A stretch of DNA of 32,150 bases from Candidatus Dormiibacterota bacterium (GCA_003132525.1 PKXZ01000084.1:1-32150), one strand, 5' to 3'. Positions 16,894-26,800 are shown, numbered from the stretch's first letter. Notes: generated by a model from the sequence alone, not told the origin. Program-made: numbers and translations.

Positions 16894-17020
16894 CGGCTGA
16901 TCCTCGTGTACTGACTTCCGTTGAGCGTCGGTGAGTGTAGCCGACGCTCTGTGCGGAGAAAATCTCAGCTCCGGGCATGTTCCACCCGGTGCGGTCCCCC
17001 CGTGTATCGTCCGAGGCCGC

Positions 17021-18262
17021 ATGGCAACCCAGGATCTGACCGACGTCGGCTCGATGCCGCGCCTTGGTGACGTCCCCGCGCGGATGCACGCGCAGGTCAT
17101 CCGACCCGAGCGCTACGGGGAACCCCAGACCGCATTCGTGGGCGAAACCGTGTCAACGCCGAAGCCCGGGCCGGGACAGGCGCTCGTGTACGTGATGGCC
17201 GCCGGCATCAACTACAACAACGTCTGGGCGGCATTGGGGAGACCGGTCGATGTCATTGCCGCGCGTCGCAAGGCGGGAGAAGCCGAGAGCTTCCACATCG
17301 GCGGCAGTGATGCGTCGGGAATCGTCTGGGCTGTCGGCGATGGCGTCGACAGCGTGCGCGTCGGCGACCACGTGGTGGCGCATTGCGGGATGTGGGATCC
17401 CGCCGACCCATGGATCACCGGCGGCGGCGACCCGATCATCGCGCCGAGCGCGCGGATCTGGGGATACGAGACCAACTGGGGGAGTTTCGCGCAGTACACC
17501 CTTGTCCAGGCGCATCAACTGCTCCCCAAAGCTCCTCGGCTGACCTGGGCTGCTGCTGCCGCGTGCACGCTGGTCGGCGCGACCGCGTACCGCATGCTCT
17601 GCTCGTGGCATCCGCACACCGTCGCTGAGAATGACGTCGTGCTCGTCTGGGGCGGATCGGGCGGACTTGGCTCGCAGGCGATCCAGATCGCCAAGGCAAA
17701 GGGGGCGATACCGATCGCCGTGACATCCGGGCCGGAACGTGGTCAGTACTGCGTTGACCTCGGTGCACGCGGATATATCGACAGGCGCGAGTTCTCGCAC
17801 TGGGGCGTGATCCCCGATTGGCGCGACGACGCGGCATTCGCCACCTGGACCGAGGGCGCGCGCGCATTCGGCAAGGCCCTGTGGGACGTTCTCGGAGAGC
17901 GCCGCAACCCGCGGATCGTCTTCGAACACCCTGGGGAAGACACCATTCCAACATCGATCTTCGTCTGCGACAACGGAGGCATGGTGGTCATCTGCGCGGG
18001 GACGACCGGGTATCACGCGGCGGTGGACCTGCGCTACCTCTGGATGCGCCAGAAACGGCTTCAGGGCTCACACTTCGCCAATGACGAGGAGAGCGCGGCG
18101 TACAACGCGATGGTGACCCGCGGCGAGGTCGATCCATGTCTCTCGCGCACGTTCGCCTTCACCGAGGTGGGCGTCGCGCATCAGCTCATGCACGAGAACC
18201 GGCATCCCATGGGCAACATGTCGATCCTGGTCGGCGCGCGAGACGCGGACCAGCGCGACTGA
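17021..18262 (+). CDS. ccr: crotonyl-CoA carboxylase/reductase
   Basis: [69 protein letters not shown]. Confidence 0.9.
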
Positions 18263-18263
18263 T

Positions 18264-18929
18264 CTACTGCTGCGCCGCGAGGTAGACGAGCGCAGCTTTG
18301 ACGCGACGGTGCACGTCCGGTTCCTCCGAGAGGTCGAGCTTCGAGAAGATGGCATTGATGTGCTTCTCGACGGCGCGCTCGGTGAGAAAGAGCGCAGCCG
18401 CGATGCCGGCGTTGTTCTTGCCCATCGCAACCTGCTGGAGCACATCGCGCTCGCGAGGTGTCAGTTGCGCGATCGGCGAGTCGCGCACTGCACTGCGTGC
18501 GGCGACGAGCACCTCGACGACTCGAGGGTCAATCACGGAGCCGCCGCGTGCCACCTCGCGGACGGCGCCCACGAGCTGATCGATGTCGGACACGCGCTCC
18601 TTGAGCAGGTAGGCACGACCGCCGGCGCCTTTCTCGAGCAACGCGAGCGCGTACTCCGGTTCGGCGTACTGGCTCAGCACAACAACGCCGACGTCGGGAC
18701 GCTCGGTGCGCAGGCGCTCGGCGGCCCGCAGCCCCTCGTCGGTCCCTGACGGTGGCATCCGGATGTCGGTGATCACCACCGCCGGGTTGTGTTCCTCGAT
18801 GGCACGCTCGAGGCCGGGGAGGTCAGCGCAGCTGGCGAGCAACTCGATCTCATCCGAGGTTTCCAGCAGCTGCCGGATCCCCTCACGCAGCAGGTAGTTG
18901 TCCTCGGCGAGGACGACGCGGATCGGCAC
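18264..18929 (-). CDS. NarL/FixJ-type response regulator (REC + LuxR HTH)
   Basis: VVITDIRMPP phosphoacceptor; LTPRERDVLQQVAMGKNNAGIAAALFLTERAVEKHINAIFSKL; GTG start at 18929. Confidence 0.92.
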   Translation of the reverse strand: MPIRVVLAEDNYLLREGIRQLLETSDEIELLASCADLPGLERAIEEHNPAVVITDIRMPPSGTDEGLRAAERLRTERPDVGVVVLSQYAEPEYALALLEKGAGGRAYLLKERVSDIDQLVGAVREVARGGSVIDPRVVEVLVAARSAVRDSPIAQLTPRERDVLQQVAMGKNNAGIAAALFLTERAVEKHINAIFSKLDLSEEPDVHRRVKAALVYLAAQQ

Positions 18930-18941: not shown

Positions 18942-18981
18942 GGGGAACGGACGCCGGGTGCTGGTATCACCGCGGATGTGG

Positions 18982-19034: not shown

Positions 19035-19415
19035 ATGAGTGTGCGAGTGTTGATCGTCGACGACCAGGCGCCGTTCCGCGACGTTGCAAGGACGGTTGTC
19101 GAGCTCACCGACGGCTTCGAGGTGGTTGGTGAGGTCGAGACCGGCGAGGCTTCGGTCACCTCGGCTCGCGATCTCCGTCCCGACCTCGTTCTCATGGATG
19201 TCCACCTGCCCGGCATCAGCGGGCTCGACGCCACCCGCCAGATCCTCGCCGGCGTGGAGGAAGCCAAGCCGGTGGTGGTCCTCGTCCTCTCGACGTATGA
19301 GGCCGATGAGTACGCACCCCGCGCGGCCGAAGCGGGAGCGGCTGGATTCATCTCCAAGGCCGAGTTCAGCCCTGATCGGCTCACGGAGGCGTGGGCCTCA
19401 GCCAACTCCGCGTAG
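19035..19415 (+). CDS. single-domain response regulator (REC only)
   Basis: VLIVDDQAPFRDV; LVLMDVHLPGISG; AAGFISKAEF; no output domain. Confidence 0.88.
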   Translation: MSVRVLIVDDQAPFRDVARTVVELTDGFEVVGEVETGEASVTSARDLRPDLVLMDVHLPGISGLDATRQILAGVEEAKPVVVLVLSTYEADEYAPRAAEAGAAGFISKAEFSPDRLTEAWASANSA

Positions 19416-19540: not shown

Positions 19541-21694
19541 TCAGACCGCCACCGCGCCGACGGACGCCGACTTGACGGGCAGCGTGGCCCGAACGTGCGT
19601 CCCGCTCCCTGGTTGCGAACTCACCTCGACGCTCCCGCCGAGTGCGTCCACGCGGTCGGCCATGTTGGTGAGGCCGGCGCCCTTCTTCGAATGCTCCGTG
19701 TCAAAGCCAGTCCCGTTGTCCTCAACCTCGAAGTGCAGCGTCCCATCATCCTCTCGAAGGTGGACCACGACCTCGGTGGCGTGCGCATATTTCTGCACGT
19801 TCTGGAGTGCCTCGAGCACGCAGAAGTACACGGTCGCCTCCACGTCCTGGGCATATCGCTCAACCGCCTCGGCGTCCACGTGCACCGGGACCGTCGCCTT
19901 GCGGGCCTGTGATTCCAGCGCGACCACCAACCCCTTGTCAGCGAGCAGCGGCGGATAGATCCCTCTTGCCAGGTCACGCAATGTCTCGAGGGCCTCATCG
20001 GCATCGCCTTTGAGCTGCTCCAGCGTCGCCGCAGCCTTGGCCGGGTCGCGCACGAGCAGCATCTCGGCGAGACCGAGCTTCACCTTCAACGCGACGAGGT
20101 GTTGCTGCGCTCCGTCGTGGAGGTTGCGCTCGAGACGGCGGCGCTCCAGGTCCTGTGCGTGCACCAGCCGCTGTCGTGACGCACGTAGCTCGTCGAGCCG
20201 CACATGAAGATCTGCGCTCAATCGGACGTTCTTGAGCACGAGGCCCGCCTGGTGGGCGAGGTCGTCCACCAGCTTCTGCTCGATCGGTGTCAGCGCCTCG
20301 CCTCCCCGCTTATTGACACTGAGGGCACCGAGCAGCTCCCCCTGATGGCGCACCTCAACCAACTTCGTCGCATCCGACATCGCGGGCAGCGACCCGTTGC
20401 TCATCGGCAGGGATGGTCGCTCCCCATCCATATTCGGGTATGTGGCCGCGGAGCGCAGCTCGGCTGTCCCACGCAACCAGACCGTCGCCGACTCCGCGCC
20501 GGTTCCCTCCTGGAGCACTTGCGCCATGCGGGGCAGAACCGCGTCCGCAGCGTATGTCTCAGCAACGCGTCCCGAGAACTCGCTCAACACCTCATACGGA
20601 GTCGCCCGTTTCCCGTAGACAAGCAGGTTGGCCAGCTTTTGCAGACGTTCTCGCACCGGCTGGAAGCCGATCGCGACGATGGCGGTGGCCAGGATTGACA
20701 GTGCGAGATTCGGCTTGCCACCGCTGCCCACCAGCTCTCCGATCCCCACCGCGATGCCGACGTACACCGCCGTGATGAACACCGCCAGCGACCCGTACAC
20801 CAGCGTTCGGCTGATGATGAGGTCGATGTCGTACAGCCGATACTTGAATACTGCAAAGCCGATTGCTATCGGGAGTGCAGCGCCGAACCCGACGACGTTG
20901 ACGACCAACCACAGCTCGTTCGTCAACACGGCAGCGTCAGGAAATGCCAGGCCGGCAAAGAAATCCAGCAACGTCGCCACCGCCGTGGTCACCACGACAA
21001 ATGCGATCCACCGCAACTGCTCGCGTTCCTCGCCCCGGGCGCGACGCAACCGCACCAACGGAGCCGCCGCCGCCGCCAGCAACACCACGAGTCCCGCAAA
21101 CCACACCAGGCCGAGCGGCCCGCTGCCAAGCGTCTCGAGAGCCTTGACACCTATCGGGTTGGGGAGCTGCGGCCGATTGTCCGGGCCTGGCAGCGGCGAC
21201 GTGCCGAGCGCCTCGAGGACAACCGCGATAAACAGGGTGGCGATCGCCCCCGTTGGAATCACGAAGCGCCACCGGCGGGAGGGAAGCCTACCGTTGGGGA
21301 TCAGCAACAGAGTCGCCGCCGCTGCGCCGGACGGATAGACAAGCGCCTCCACCCAACCGTAGATCCAGAGTGCCCACGGCGCGCCAGGAAGACCGGGGTG
21401 GGTGATCGAGGCGAGGACGGCATACTGGCCCCCCAGCCCACCCAATCCCATCACGACGGACATGAACAGGAAGAGCCAACCGACGGGATTCCGCTGCCGT
21501 TGCGAGGCGATCAGTCCGCCGACCAACGCGAATGTCAGCGACATGACGATCTCGGTCGGGGTGGTGGCGGCGAGCGAATGAATCGAGGCGGCGTTCAAGA
21601 GCACGAGTGCGATGGTTGCCGCGCCGAGTACGACGCCCACCGCGGCGATGCTCCATGCCAGACGCACCCGGCCTCGAGTGTTCTCCTTGCTCAT
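19541..21694 (-). CDS. membrane histidine kinase (multi-TM, GAF, HisKA_3, HATPase_c)
   Basis: LERRRLERNLHDGAQQHLVALKVKLGLAEML; EVEDNGTGFDTEHSKKGAGLTNMADRV. Confidence 0.92.
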   Translation of the reverse strand: MSKENTRGRVRLAWSIAAVGVVLGAATIALVLLNAASIHSLAATTPTEIVMSLTFALVGGLIASQRQRNPVGWLFLFMSVVMGLGGLGGQYAVLASITHPGLPGAPWALWIYGWVEALVYPSGAAAATLLLIPNGRLPSRRWRFVIPTGAIATLFIAVVLEALGTSPLPGPDNRPQLPNPIGVKALETLGSGPLGLVWFAGLVVLLAAAAAPLVRLRRARGEEREQLRWIAFVVVTTAVATLLDFFAGLAFPDAAVLTNELWLVVNVVGFGAALPIAIGFAVFKYRLYDIDLIISRTLVYGSLAVFITAVYVGIAVGIGELVGSGGKPNLALSILATAIVAIGFQPVRERLQKLANLLVYGKRATPYEVLSEFSGRVAETYAADAVLPRMAQVLQEGTGAESATVWLRGTAELRSAATYPNMDGERPSLPMSNGSLPAMSDATKLVEVRHQGELLGALSVNKRGGEALTPIEQKLVDDLAHQAGLVLKNVRLSADLHVRLDELRASRQRLVHAQDLERRRLERNLHDGAQQHLVALKVKLGLAEMLLVRDPAKAAATLEQLKGDADEALETLRDLARGIYPPLLADKGLVVALESQARKATVPVHVDAEAVERYAQDVEATVYFCVLEALQNVQKYAHATEVVVHLREDDGTLHFEVEDNGTGFDTEHSKKGAGLTNMADRVDALGGSVEVSSQPGSGTHVRATLPVKSASVGAVAV

Positions 21695-21764
21695 CGCGAG
21701 AATGCCTCAGTGGCACGAGCATGCGCATGCCGCTCGCGGTCGATTCGTTGGCTCACGCTCGCGT

Positions 21765-23069
21765 TCACCCCACGCGGTAAGCGCCGACGGGCGTGTGCCG
21801 ACCCTTCACCAGCGCCGGCTCGATACGCTCCGCATCGGGCCTGTCCACGAGTGCGTCGTAGGTTGGTTCGCTGAGCACCGTCTGGCCGCTCTCACCCCAT
21901 TGCTGCAGGCGTTGCGCGAGGTTCACGGCATCGCCGACCAGTGAGTACTCGAGCCGCTCCTCCGAGCCGAGCAAGGCTGCGGCGACGTCACCGGTCGAGA
22001 GTCCGATGCCGAGGAAAAATGGCGGCAGGCCCTGGGTCTTCCAGCCGTCATTGACCTCGCGCTGCGCGGCATGCATGGCGAGCGCGGCGGACAGCGCACG
22101 CTGCGCGTGGTCGGGCTGAGAAAAGGGTGCACCGAAGACGGCCATCACCGCGTCGCCGACGAACTGCATCACGGTGCCGCCCTCAGACAGAACCGCATGA
22201 TTCATCGCGGCGCGATGCTCATTGAGCTGACCCGCGAGCACCGACGGATCCGATGACTCCGCGATCGTCGAGTACGCGCGAATGTCCGACATCAGCACGG
22301 TCACCGTCAGGCGCTCGGTCCGGCCGGGCTGCACTCCGTTCTCACGCATCTGCTGCGCGATGCCGCCCGGGAGCATCCGGCTGAGGCTCTCCCCCTGCTC
22401 CTCGCGGTCGATGATCACCTTGTGGAGCAGGCGCAACCGATCGAGCGCGCCCTGCGTGCCCGCGCTCGCCTGTTGCGCGAGCTTGAGGAAGAGCTGCTCG
22501 ATGTCGTCGCCGACAGACGTCGCGGTCGCATGCAGTGACGCGGCAATTGCCTTGATGGGCTTGCCCTCGGCAACCATGCGGAGCAGTCGCTCCTCGTCTT
22601 CGGTCAAACCGCCGGCGTCGCTCACGGGGCGGGTGAGCGCATCGACGATGCGCGGGTCGAGCATCGATCCGCCGGTGCTCACCTCGCGAACGGCTCGCGC
22701 AAGCTGATCGCCCTCGGCCACGCGATCCTTGAGCAGGTAGGCGTATCCGGCCGCACCCTCGCTGAGCAGTGATATTGCGTACTCGGGCTCGTCGTACTGA
22801 GAAAGGATCACGACGCCGGTCCCGGGATGGCGCTTGCGGACGATTCGGGCCGCCCGGATTCCCTCATCGGTGAAATCGGGTGGCATGCGGATGTCGGTGA
22901 CCACCACCTGGGGCAGGTGCTCGGCCGCTCCAGCAAGCAACTCGTCGTAGTCGCCGGCAACCCCAACCACGTTGACGTCTCCGGAGATGGAGAGCAGGGC
23001 GCGAACCCCCTCCCGCACGATCAGGTTGTCGTCCGCGAGCACGACGCGGATGGACTGCTCGAGTGGCAT
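21765..23069 (-). CDS. response regulator-class III adenylate/guanylate cyclase fusion (REC + degenerate HTH-like + CYC)
   Basis: VVVTDIRMPPDFTDEG REC; VTVLMSDIRAYSTIAES, VMQFVGDAVMAVFGAP, YSLVGDAVNLAQRLQQW cyclase motifs; ATG at 23069. Confidence 0.9.
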   Translation of the reverse strand: MPLEQSIRVVLADDNLIVREGVRALLSISGDVNVVGVAGDYDELLAGAAEHLPQVVVTDIRMPPDFTDEGIRAARIVRKRHPGTGVVILSQYDEPEYAISLLSEGAAGYAYLLKDRVAEGDQLARAVREVSTGGSMLDPRIVDALTRPVSDAGGLTEDEERLLRMVAEGKPIKAIAASLHATATSVGDDIEQLFLKLAQQASAGTQGALDRLRLLHKVIIDREEQGESLSRMLPGGIAQQMRENGVQPGRTERLTVTVLMSDIRAYSTIAESSDPSVLAGQLNEHRAAMNHAVLSEGGTVMQFVGDAVMAVFGAPFSQPDHAQRALSAALAMHAAQREVNDGWKTQGLPPFFLGIGLSTGDVAAALLGSEERLEYSLVGDAVNLAQRLQQWGESGQTVLSEPTYDALVDRPDAERIEPALVKGRHTPVGAYRVG

Positions 23070-23075
23070 AGGCCA

Positions 23076-23081
23076 ACTGTA
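23076..23081 (-). promoter_or_regulatory. putative -10 element TACAGT, leaderless
   Basis: TACAGT-N6-ATG(23069) on the minus strand. Confidence 0.4.
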
Positions 23082-23125
23082 GTCAGCGCGGCGCGCATCG
23101 AAATGGGGCTGCCACCACGGTATGA

Positions 23126-23144
23126 CGGGGTGATCCCCACCCCG
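23126..23144. promoter_or_regulatory. 7-bp inverted repeat CGGGGTG-ATCCC-CACCCCG
   Basis: perfect dyad in the divergent intergenic region between the cyclase and CNB genes. Confidence 0.4.
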
Positions 23145-23163
23145 ACATGTGGTCCGTGCACCC

Positions 23164-23192
23164 TCGACCTCCTCTGTCGCGCGATCGATAAT
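23164..23192 (+). promoter_or_regulatory. possible promoter TCGACC-N17-GATAAT
   Basis: spacing 17 nt; followed by AAGGAGGT Shine-Dalgarno and ATG 23213. Confidence 0.35.
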
Positions 23193-23212
23193 CGACACCA
23201 AGGAGGTACGAC

Positions 23213-24214
23213 ATGCGTCTCGAATCATCAGTCACATCCATCTCGTGGATCCCGTCCGAGGCAGTACCCGGCGTCACCAAGGTCCCGTTCGAAATCGGCT
23301 TCTCCCACTACGACGACCCGCCTCCTGATCACATCGAATCGCTCGAAGCGCTGCTTGCGGAGGATCGCTTTCGATTCGCCAACCAACTGAGCGCGTGGAT
23401 CGATGTCGTCGACGGGCGCATCGTCCGACACGGTCAGGCGGGTGGCGGGCAGATCGGCGTGACGAAGCTGCGGCTCGGTGGCCGCGGCATGACCTTCGCC
23501 GCGGTTGCCTTTCCAGACAAGCGGGAGGACCCCGTCGCCGGCGATGGCTGGGTCCGTTTCGCGCAGACCTGCGGCGGAAGGACCGGGGTGCCGGCGCCTC
23601 GCAGAGTCAATCGACCTCCATTCATCCAGGTCGCCGCTCCGTTGGCCTGGACGACCCTGACCCTGACCCTTTTCGCCGACGGAACCTCGGTGCACGAACT
23701 GACCGGCGCCAGTCCGTTCCCGCGCCATTGGGTCTACGACGGTGACCAGAACCTGACTCACAAATCGGGCCTCGTCGACTTCAAGCGCTGGTACCAGCAC
23801 GCCTTCGGAAGTCATACGCCCTGGGGCGACGAGGATTCGCCGGCGCTGGTGACAGAGGTCGAGACGGCGACCGAGCGGGAGCTCTCGCTCCGCATCATGC
23901 GAGGCGGCGTCAAACCCCGCATTCAGGTGGTCAAAGAGGGCGGGACGCTCGTGGAGCAGGGCGAGGAGGGAGGTGACCTCTACCTCCTCCTGGACGGAGT
24001 CCTCTCGGTCGAAGTCGATGGCGTGCCGGTTGCACAGGTCGGACCTGGGGCCGTGCTCGGCGAGCGTGCGCTGCTCGAGGACGGCCTGCGCACCGCCACG
24101 CTCCGCGCGTTGACGCCGTGCAAGGTGGCGGCGGCGACCGGCGCCGAGCTTGCCCCGGAACTGCTCAGCGAGCTGGCTGCCGGGCACCGTCGTGAAGGGG
24201 ATCGAGCCGGCTGA
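23213..24214 (+). CDS. cyclic-nucleotide-binding domain protein with uncharacterised N-terminal domain
   Basis: C-terminal GGTLVEQGEEGGDLYLLLDGVLSVEVDGVPVAQVGPGAVLGERALLEDGLRTATLRAL (CNB fold; Gly-Glu and Arg of phosphate-binding cassette present); AGGAGG Shine-Dalgarno. Confidence 0.85.
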   Translation: MRLESSVTSISWIPSEAVPGVTKVPFEIGFSHYDDPPPDHIESLEALLAEDRFRFANQLSAWIDVVDGRIVRHGQAGGGQIGVTKLRLGGRGMTFAAVAFPDKREDPVAGDGWVRFAQTCGGRTGVPAPRRVNRPPFIQVAAPLAWTTLTLTLFADGTSVHELTGASPFPRHWVYDGDQNLTHKSGLVDFKRWYQHAFGSHTPWGDEDSPALVTEVETATERELSLRIMRGGVKPRIQVVKEGGTLVEQGEEGGDLYLLLDGVLSVEVDGVPVAQVGPGAVLGERALLEDGLRTATLRALTPCKVAAATGAELAPELLSELAAGHRREGDRAG

Positions 24215-25013
24215 TCGCCGCCCGGACTCGATCCATGGCGACCTCGGGGGGCAGCGTCGCCAGCTCGACGCGCCGTCCGCTGAGGAGCCAGTCGAGCTCG
24301 GGGCGCTCCAGCAGTGCGCTGAGATCGCGCGGAAGGCGCGCGGGTGCGCCCTCGATCACCTGCTGTGACGGCCCGTCGACATCGCGAGGGCGCAGGCCGC
24401 CGTCGAGGACATCCACACCTTGGTCGCGAAGGTCCTGGACCAGCGCACAGCCACGCGGTGAGGCGTCGTGGAGCAGGATCACGCGGGTTGCCGGAGGCGG
24501 TTTCCACGCGTCACTCGCCACCACCACTTCGACGGCACCAAGCTCCGCACGCTCTGCGTTGCCTGCAACCATGGCTGCGGTTTCGGGCGAATCGGTGGCG
24601 ATGGTGATCGGCGCCGCATTGGTCGCCGCCTCGACGGCGGGCGTGGTACCGGGGGGAATCAAGCCCTCGAGCTCGAGCGCCCCGAAACGGCTGCGGAATT
24701 CGTCGAACGAGAGTGCAAGCAGCCGTCCGGTCAGCTTCGGCTTGCGCATCCGTCCAAGGATGCCCGCGAGGATGAGCGCAACGCCGAGCGTCACGAAAAG
24801 CGCGAACAGGACCTTGATGCCGATGAGGATCAATCCGACGAGGATCATCAGCACGCCGAGACCGATCTCGCCGTTGGCCGCGGTATCGGAAGGAGTGGTT
24901 TCGGCGCGCGCGCAGGTGGCGTAGTACAGCTGACGCTGCGTATATCGCCACCCACCGGCCGCGAGACCGGCGCCCGAATCCTCCACGAGCAACGTGTTCA
25001 CCGGAAGTGCCAT
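24165..25013 (-). CDS. uncharacterised protein with central TM hairpin
   Basis: start MALPVNTLLVEDSG; GEIGLGVLMILVGLILIGIKVLFALFVTLGVALILAGIL; convergent overlap with the CNB gene 3' end. Confidence 0.65.
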   Translation of the reverse strand: MALPVNTLLVEDSGAGLAAGGWRYTQRQLYYATCARAETTPSDTAANGEIGLGVLMILVGLILIGIKVLFALFVTLGVALILAGILGRMRKPKLTGRLLALSFDEFRSRFGALELEGLIPPGTTPAVEAATNAAPITIATDSPETAAMVAGNAERAELGAVEVVVASDAWKPPPATRVILLHDASPRGCALVQDLRDQGVDVLDGGLRPRDVDGPSQQVIEGAPARLPRDLSALLERPELDWLLSGRRVELATLPPEVAMDRVRAAISRLDPLHDGARQPAR

Positions 25014-25078
25014 CGCGGCCGAGTGTTGCACAGCTTCCGGACGCCGACCACCGAGTTCGCGGGCTCGTGACACAGCGA

Positions 25079-25084
25079 TATGCT
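25079..25084 (+). promoter_or_regulatory. putative -10 element TATGCT, leaderless
   Basis: TATGCT-N6-ATG(25091). Confidence 0.45.
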
Positions 25085-25090
25085 GCGGCG

Positions 25091-26800
25091 ATGGTCACCG
25101 AACCGGATGCTTCGTCGTCCGTCACGGTGGAGGAAGGAGAACCGGACTTCGTCGAAGCGCTCCTCGAGTGGCAGGACACGGTCCTCGACCCGGCCCGGGA
25201 GCGGGGGGAGCGCAAGGACCCGTTCCTGACCGGCAGCGGCATCCCGGTGGATCCGCTCTACACGCCGGCCGACCTGAACGAGCACGATCCGCTCCGCCAT
25301 GAGGGGTTTCCCGGGGTGCCTCCGTTCACCCGCGGGATCCAGCCGACCATGTATCGCGGACGCCTCTGGAGCATCCGCCAGTACGCCGGCTACGGGACCG
25401 CGAGCGACGCCAACGCCCGGTTCCGCTACCTGCTCGCCCAGGGCCAGCCCGGGCTCTCGGTCGCCTTTGACCTGCCGACCCAGATGGGCCTGGACAGCGA
25501 CGATCCGCGCAGCGCGGGCGAGGTGGGGCAGGTCGGAGTCGCCATCGACTCGGTGCGCGACATGGAGGACCTGTTCGAAAGCATCCCACTCAGCGCGGTG
25601 AGCACCTCGATGACCATCAACGCGCCGGCGCCGGTGCTGGTGGCGATGTACGTGGTCGCAGCGGAACGTCAGGGCCTCGATGCGGCATCGATCATGGGGA
25701 CTGTCCAGAACGATGTGCTCAAGGAGTACGTCGCCCGGGGCACCTTCATCTATCCGCCGCGCCCATCGCTGCGTCTCGCGGCGGATCTGATCGTGTGGTG
25801 CACACGCAACGCGCCGAAATTCAATCCGATCTCGCTGTCCGGATACCACATCCGCGAGGCGGGAAGCACCGCCGCGCAGGAGATGGCATTCGCGATCGCC
25901 AACGCATGCGCGTACGTGCAGGCGTCGATCGCCCGCGGCATCGGCGTCGACGACTTCGCTCCCAAGCTCTCCTGGATCTTCAACACGCACATCGATTTTT
26001 TCGAGGAGATCGCCAAGTACCGAGCGCTCCGACGGATGTGGTCGCGGATCATGGCCGAGCGGTTCCATGCACACGATCCGCGCTCGCTCATGCTCCGAAC
26101 GCACACGCAGACGGGTGGTTCAACGTTGACCGCGCAGCAGCCGGAGAACAACATCGTTCGAGCCGCCATCGAAGCGCTCGCCGCCGTGCTCGGAGGTGTC
26201 CAGTCGCTGGCGCTGTCCTGCTACGACGAGGCGCTCTCAATCCCGACCGAGAAAGCGCAGCGCATCGCGGTGCGCACCCAGCAGATCATCGCCGAGGAAA
26301 CCGGTGTGACCAACACCGTCGACCCGCTGGGTGGGTCGTATTACGTCGAGTGGCTCACCGATGAGCTCGAACGCGAGGCTCGCAAGCTGCTCGACGAGAT
26401 TGATGACCGCGGCGGCGCGGTGGCGTGCATCGAGGCAGGGTGGATGCAGCAGCTCATCCAGGACGAGGCGTATCGCACGGAGCGGGCAATCGCGGTGGGC
26501 GACAAGGTGATCGTGGGTGTCAACCGATACACCGAGAGCGAGGAGGGTGGCGCGCCGCTGCTATTCCGGCCGGACGAACGCGCGATGGCCGGCCAGGCGG
26601 CGCGACTCGCAGCGCATCGCGCCGGTCGCGATCGGAGTGCGGTCGACATCGCGCTCGCCGCGGTGAAGCAGGCGGCCACGACCGACGAAACGCTAATGCC
26701 ACGCATCCTCGTCGCCGTCCGCGTGGAGGCAACGCTCGGCGAGATCTGCGGCGCGCTGCGGAGCGTCTTCGGCGAATATCAGCCACCGGCGACGATCTGA
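25091..26800 (+). CDS. methylmalonyl-CoA mutase large (substrate-binding) subunit, no B12-binding domain
   Basis: PTMYRGRLWSIRQYAGYGTASDAN; TMTINAPAPVLVAMYV; GTVQNDVLKEYVARGTFIYPP; RTHTQTGGSTLTAQQPENNIVR; NTVDPLGGSYYVE; ends without a DxHxxG B12 module. Confidence 0.92.
   Translation: MVTEPDASSSVTVEEGEPDFVEALLEWQDTVLDPARERGERKDPFLTGSGIPVDPLYTPADLNEHDPLRHEGFPGVPPFTRGIQPTMYRGRLWSIRQYAGYGTASDANARFRYLLAQGQPGLSVAFDLPTQMGLDSDDPRSAGEVGQVGVAIDSVRDMEDLFESIPLSAVSTSMTINAPAPVLVAMYVVAAERQGLDAASIMGTVQNDVLKEYVARGTFIYPPRPSLRLAADLIVWCTRNAPKFNPISLSGYHIREAGSTAAQEMAFAIANACAYVQASIARGIGVDDFAPKLSWIFNTHIDFFEEIAKYRALRRMWSRIMAERFHAHDPRSLMLRTHTQTGGSTLTAQQPENNIVRAAIEALAAVLGGVQSLALSCYDEALSIPTEKAQRIAVRTQQIIAEETGVTNTVDPLGGSYYVEWLTDELEREARKLLDEIDDRGGAVACIEAGWMQQLIQDEAYRTERAIAVGDKVIVGVNRYTESEEGGAPLLFRPDERAMAGQAARLAAHRAGRDRSAVDIALAAVKQAATTDETLMPRILVAVRVEATLGEICGALRSVFGEYQPPATI

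Follow-up and report, generated by a model that had tools for sequence, protein, structure and literature searches.

A putative two-component, cyclic-mononucleotide signalling cassette in Candidatus Dormibacterota and Actinomycetota

The window, by which is meant the whole stretch of DNA that was analysed (32,150 nucleotides; G000:C25, G000 being the genome that contains it), carries a cluster of signalling genes which is laid out in Table 1. Genes for a histidine kinase and for a response regulator with cyclase output lie on one strand, 70 nt apart, and a gene for a CNB-domain protein starts 143 nt from the cyclase gene on the opposite strand. Pfam and ORF positions agree in this with the three-gene arrangement, gaps included, from which a preliminary description of this DNA had started. 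Two further response regulators adjoin the kinase, i.e., a NarL-type regulator and a REC-only protein, the latter, lone REC being a conserved neighbour in REC-cyclase loci. Near-identical gene order is seen as well in other Candidatus Dormibacterota genomes.

Table 1. Features of the locus, with coordinates counted from the first letter of the window
Feature	Coordinates	Strand	Basis
NarL-type response regulator, intact LuxR HTH	18264..18929	-	Response_reg 3e-15, GerE 2.5e-13
Palindromic motif, second and weak copy (GGTGCTGGTATCACCGCG), between NarL-type regulator and lone REC	18957..18974		Score 7.7
Stand-alone REC domain (CheY-like), start codon uncertain	~19035..19415	+	Response_reg 3.7e-22
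HisKA_3/HATPase_c histidine kinase, 717 aa	19541..21694	-	Pfam; H-box ...ERNLHDGAQQ; homologues adjoin REC-cyclase in related genomes
Response regulator with class III nucleotide cyclase output	21765..23069	-	Pfam; invariant residues
Divergent promoter region of cyclase and CNB genes	23070..23212		Promoter-like box; AAGGAGGT
Candidate operator, window copy of the palindromic motif (AATGGGGCTGCCACCACG)	23102..23119		Best motif match in window
Candidate cNMP receptor/effector, 333 aa	23213..24214	+	Pfam; AlphaFold2 model; family alignment

Two nearby metabolic genes, CCR (16931-18262) and methylmalonyl-CoA mutase (25007-26800), were considered as members of the module and rejected, as one congener (G005) keeps both while having lost the module and, in other families, the module occurs without them. 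What remains of the module in that congener (L221 7726-11947; also L089) is only the last third of the CNB gene, which sits between CCR and mutase, both still in place. A conserved ORF of approximately 300 aa (window 24165-25073, minus strand) overlaps the CNB gene at its end and the mutase gene at its start; it is 76-80% identical in congeners and is without a Pfam or NCBIfam match.

The kinase matches HisKA_3 (9e-16) and HATPase_c (5e-14) in Pfam. It is of membrane type, with a hydrophobic N-terminal half, and a GAF-like region can be seen by eye, for which Pfam gave no hit. The product of the cyclase gene in turn matches Response_reg (2.5e-14) and Guanylate_cyc (1.8e-21), and is made up of REC (residues 9-109), a decayed LuxR HTH (155-197), a linker (approximately 215-240) and a cyclase domain (255-426). 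Its PF00211 score of 77 bits, against a gathering cut-off of 21.9, makes it a class III nucleotide cyclase. The preliminary description held that both metal-binding Asp residues and the transition-state Asn are retained, and this extends well beyond the window: D262, D306 and N383, along with the Arg R387, are invariant across 38 full-length homologues. Equally invariant in these homologues are the REC residues D13, D14, S90 and K114 as well as the phospho-acceptor, D59. With REC phosphorylation residues and a cyclase fused in one protein, it belongs by sequence among response regulators with cyclase output (CheY-AC).

The LuxR/GerE HTH that lies between REC and cyclase is recognizable only as a remnant (E=0.005; 16.8 bits versus a cut-off of 23.5), and weak matches to this HTH are found in 17 of the 38 family members (best, 4e-4). 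The REC-HTH part as a whole, moreover, is 51% identical to the NarL-type regulator of the same cluster. Given that decay and that identity, the cyclase protein looks like a NarL-type regulator which traded its DNA binding for a cyclase domain. A TACAGT box is present a few bases ahead of the cyclase ATG (minus strand, window 23067-23085), with similar boxes in relatives (TGTAAT in Streptosporangiaceae), the closeness of TACAGT to the ATG hinting at a leaderless cyclase transcript.

In most adenylate cyclases, the base-selecting position is Lys. Here that position is Gln (Q302, within TVMQFVGD) in 38 of 38 homologues, i.e., with Lys absent, and position 376 is either Ser or Thr. The window cyclase consequently falls outside of the ordinary adenylate-cyclase subtype, as that subtype is recognized by its Lys, and this loss leaves substrate specificity ambiguous. 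By sequence the product may be cAMP, cGMP or another nucleotide. Homologues of the CNB protein which adjoin cyclases possessing the canonical Lys would favour cAMP.

The CNB protein matches cNMP_binding (5.7e-14) over residues 239-311 and, with 52.3 bits for PF00027 against a cut-off of 27.5, is readily classified as such. It had been characterized as a divergent CNB protein possessing an intact Gly-Glu...Arg cassette. The second half of that characterization is accurate, with the phosphate-binding cassette (G283-E284-R285-A286...R293-T294) intact in 61-62 of 62 homologues, and 'divergent' for this reason is a poor description of the ligand cassette; the unfamiliar part of the protein is instead its N-terminal domain. 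The CNB domain ends at about residue 311 of 333, with neither Pfam nor NCBIfam finding a CRP/FNR-type HTH following it. The receptor family is 51-84% identical across large distances and occurs in culturable strains of Streptosporangium, Microbispora, Streptacidiphilus and Actinotalea.

The N-terminal domain, spanning about residues 1-232, is conserved, with 29 residues invariant across the family. A Pfam search found no domain in the protein other than cNMP_binding, a sequence search of the N-terminal domain against solved structures yielded no credible match, and other sequence searches were likewise empty. AlphaFold2 modelled the full-length protein with a pLDDT of 85 and a pTM of 0.84 and, taken alone, the N-terminal domain as a beta-rich globular fold (pTM 0.82). 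Foldseek returned only CNB domains for the full-length model. For the N-terminal domain alone it returned a sole match, 3c5p (BAS0735; E 1e-4, TM 0.46/0.53, rmsd 9 over 233 columns), which is a protein without assigned function and a match too loose for naming the function of the N-terminal domain. An SRPBCC-type fold, an idea that came from secondary structure, went unsupported by the Foldseek search. The charged and aromatic residues among those that are invariant would fit with an enzyme or ligand pocket. Stand-alone copies of this domain, i.e., lacking CNB, exist in two genomes (L229 5797-6495 and L220 9327-10205; genomes G074 and G084), where they adjoin a histidine kinase and a LuxR-type response regulator.

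Co-conservation of the trio, a check which the preliminary description had itself proposed, was looked for in 101 related genomes, ranging from same genus to same class (cyclase threshold of >300 bits, with some matches partial or fragments). The cyclase is present in 25 of these genomes, and all 25 possess the CNB family as well: 22 with the two genes head-to-head, two with the genes approximately 11 kb apart, and one with them on different contigs. Head-to-head pairs are found also in Streptosporangium, Microbispora, Acrocarpospora, Streptacidiphilus, Acidimicrobiia, Nitriliruptorales and Egibacter. A broader sample consisted of 397 Actinomycetota genomes drawn evenly; of these, 30 possess the CNB family, as against 17 of the 19 which have a high-scoring cyclase (p=6e-20, shared ancestry ignored). 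In Dormibacterota and in several classes of Actinomycetota, cyclase and CNB protein are co-conserved and in most cases head-to-head, an arrangement well outside what chance would give. The lack of co-conservation that would have refuted the preliminary reading was not seen. The kinase follows the REC-type cyclase only.

A palindromic motif with the family consensus GGTGGTGCtaGCACCACC is shared by 22 dissimilar cyclase-CNB gaps (score 355 versus 193 +/- 6 in shuffles; the motif was trained on these gaps, using intergenic DNA only). The window copy scores 14.8, which is the best of the whole window, the next being 10.4. In the same gap, a promoter-like TCGACC-17-GATAAT lies on the plus strand (23164-23192), and AAGGAGGT precedes the CNB start. 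Beyond the DNA used for training, further copies stand between the NarL-type regulator and the lone REC, scoring at least 11 in 11 of 12 relatives from outside the genus of the window, and at least 15 in eight of those 11. At this second position the motif is weak in the window and in congeners (empirical p of approximately 0.025 for the region with the window copy). Where the genes instead lie apart, as in L052 (motif at 1731, 3663 and 7369) and L059 (2314, 4219 and 7905), copies stand before the cyclase gene, before the CNB gene, and before the NarL-type regulator/lone REC pair. The NarL-type regulator would be the obvious candidate binder of the palindrome. In L076, L078, L080 and L082 the motif also precedes a FAD-linked oxidase gene.

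A shared operator raises the question of what the pairing of cyclase and CNB genes signifies. The CNB protein might simply read a general cAMP pool, with the genes co-inherited via a common promoter and regulator. The 15 PF00211 cyclase matches in the window's genome make a global pool likely, and a shared operator-like motif could, on its own, account for a lasting divergent arrangement. The CNB gene, however, also adjoins unrelated cyclases without this operator, and most loci whose cyclase is of another type lack the motif ahead of the CNB gene. In the Actinomycetota draw, 25 of 36 CNB loci include a class III cyclase domain at a distance of no more than 2.6 kb, as compared with 0.49 expected given the number of cyclases per genome. 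Just 11 of those 25 neighbours are of the REC type; the other 14 are cyclase-ATPase or other non-REC types, mostly cyclase-ATPase proteins of 600-1,400 residues, which may be upstream or downstream and on either strand. Among the 11 loci without a cyclase that near, six end at a contig end and five, which count against the pairing, have both flanks, with one of the five (G295) having a REC-cyclase 6.6 kb off. The sole PF00211 cyclase of the genome, furthermore, is kept beside the CNB gene in five genomes (G115, G199, G312, G396 and G451), which speaks against a general pool, and probably also in G424, for which the position of the cyclase is unlisted. In G119, and likewise in G134, there are three CNB genes, every one of which adjoins a cyclase.

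The CNB gene stays with a class III cyclase, in other words, even though the type of cyclase changes: partners are swapped and the pairing is kept. Orthologous gene order may persist without function, but swapped partners speak against that here, ruling out old gene order alone as the explanation, and a functional tie between CNB protein and cyclase would explain the pairing. We consider it unlikely that the CNB protein merely reads a general pool.

The same 397 genomes include a second, lower-scoring group of REC-HTH-cyclases, found in 16 genomes, none of which possesses the CNB family. These sister cyclases have the canonical Lys in all six examples read. Their loci (L232, L233, L234, L235, L236 and L237) are beside HisKA_3 kinases, NarL-type regulators or FtsX-type ABC transporters. 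Of the two genomes which have the high-scoring cyclase without the CNB family, one (G253) has Asp replacing Gln and the other (G301) has its cyclase on a 4-kb contig. This distribution suggests, without proving, that Gln at the base-selecting position and a CNB partner belong together.

Turning to the input side, a related HisKA_3 kinase is present at 30 of 37 REC-cyclase loci versus one of 17 other-cyclase loci (p=1.6e-7, shared ancestry ignored). Kinase and cyclase reading frames overlap by approximately 4 nt in L047 and L235; in Streptosporangiaceae the two genes are separated by an ABC transporter of the same strand (an ATPase with an FtsX-type permease). Each cluster contains three REC proteins along with several kinases, so that which kinase pairs with which REC is ambiguous. 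The kinase could serve the NarL-type regulator, an intact DNA-binding paralogue in the same cluster, rather than the cyclase, whose REC then would be a constitutive dimerisation unit, and the 70 nt separating cyclase and kinase in the window are in keeping with that arrangement. A merely structural REC nevertheless is difficult to square with phosphorylation residues that are all invariant in 38 homologues, and a kinase devoted to the NarL-type regulator is difficult to square with its near absence where the cyclase lacks REC, or with the overlapping of kinase and cyclase reading frames in relatives. We accordingly view such an arrangement as quite improbable, and prefer a kinase which acts on the REC of the cyclase.

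The kinase linkage bears also on whether the locus might be an antiphage system of the Pycsar kind, in which the cyclase would make a cyclic pyrimidine and the CNB protein would be the killing effector. PADLOC PycC models do match the cyclase (2e-20), and PycTIR-type models the CNB domain (4e-10), in both cases via a general shared domain only; the nearest CNB structures include PycTIR 8jsk; and the base-selecting residue, Q302, differs from the canonical Lys. Pyrimidine cyclases, however, are reported with other residues (PMC11224242; the comparison is by description rather than by residue alignment), and CNB homologues pair as well with canonical-Lys cyclases. The N-terminal part of the CNB protein, moreover, has no TIR, transmembrane or other Pfam effector domain, and the module goes with a two-component kinase and keeps its position from one related genome to the next. 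A killing system seems very improbable indeed.

In relatives, the gene that directly follows the CNB gene often encodes an MBL-fold protein (PF12706, THLHWDH; e.g., L057 8996-9916 and L228 9363-10196). Its THLHWDH matches the signature [T/S]HXHXDH of atypical class II cNMP phosphodiesterases, i.e., those of the Rv1339 type (PMC9293780). The NCBIfam model for that family aligns over the whole length, albeit below its cut-off, and RNase Z is similar as well. It is possible that this protein is a cNMP phosphodiesterase and, as such, an off-switch in these relatives. The window's genome, approximately 88% complete, gave no match to it.

The preliminary description envisaged a self-contained unit running from signal through synthesis to effector. 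For the core of cyclase, CNB protein and kinase, the genomic evidence strengthens this reading. As a delimitation of the unit it was too narrow, as the NarL-type regulator, the lone REC and the shared candidate operator also belong to the neighbourhood, and many relatives add the MBL-fold, phosphodiesterase-like protein or the FtsX-type ABC transporter. The following chain can be proposed. The kinase would sense a signal and phosphorylate D59 of the adjacent REC-HTH-cyclase. By way of REC, the HTH remnant and a linker helix, this would reach the class III cyclase dimer and alter, whether up or down, how much of a cyclic mononucleotide is made, with cAMP the likeliest candidate. The CNB protein would bind that product in its C-terminal CNB domain, and binding presumably would switch the N-terminal domain, which would be the actual output. 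Both divergent genes probably are controlled by the NarL-type regulator via the shared palindromic operator. On genomic grounds, i.e., domain content, intact active-site residues, co-conservation, the swapping of partners, the linkage of the kinase and the conserved motif, we give a probability of roughly 0.7 that kinase, REC-cyclase, cNMP and CNB protein form one signalling chain.

A broader proposal, for which we would offer even odds, is that of a widespread cyclic-mononucleotide cassette of Dormibacterota and Actinomycetota in which a new effector family is served by interchangeable class III cyclases. In its two-component version, REC-HTH-cyclase, effector and NarL-type regulator would share an operator, and the change from Lys to Gln would track the effector, such that messenger or selectivity may be non-standard. 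To our knowledge, there are few bacterial cAMP-type pathways for which input, synthase and a matched non-transcriptional receptor are identified. The receptor family here is defined, conserved and available in culturable hosts and, because five genomes have a single PF00211 cyclase which is beside the CNB gene, ligand and function are directly testable. The N-terminal domain, with its 29 invariant residues and, as sole structural neighbour, a protein that itself lacks an assigned function, is a good target in the search for a new cNMP-regulated activity.

The open-licence PMC literature describes CheY-AC regulators, mycobacterial CHD-LuxR proteins and Pycsar, and no description of this cassette was found there. 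Closest in terms of input are the CheY-AC response regulators, in which REC is fused to a class III cyclase (PMC1183210); the likeness is that of a REC-cyclase fusion converting a two-component signal into a cyclic nucleotide. Unlike CheY-AC, the protein here has a decayed NarL/LuxR HTH between REC and cyclase, Gln for Lys, and a head-to-head CNB gene. The CHD+LuxR proteins of mycobacteria have the order cyclase-ATPase-LuxR, without REC, whereas that of the window protein is REC-HTH-cyclase, with the HTH degenerate. What these share with the window protein is cyclase and LuxR-type HTH in a single protein, as for example in Rv0386 of Mycobacterium (PMC3466318). A novel mode of substrate selection has been reported for Rv0386, in work cited in PMC3466318, and may be a precedent for Gln-type base selection.

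With Pycsar (PMC11224242) there is in common the adjoining of a class III-type cyclase gene and a CNB-domain effector gene. The present system differs in having kinase and REC input and in lacking TIR or a known effector domain. The mycobacterial acetyltransferase Pat similarly places one CNB domain on a non-DNA-binding domain, and the CNB part of the window protein has a hit to the NCBIfam Pat model (5.5e-5). Unlike in Pat, the attached domain is without a GNAT or Pfam match, and the CNB domain of the window protein is at its C-terminus. The cassette, then, is of a known kind, i.e., two-component control of a class III cyclase with CNB readout, and unfamiliar in its putative output domain.
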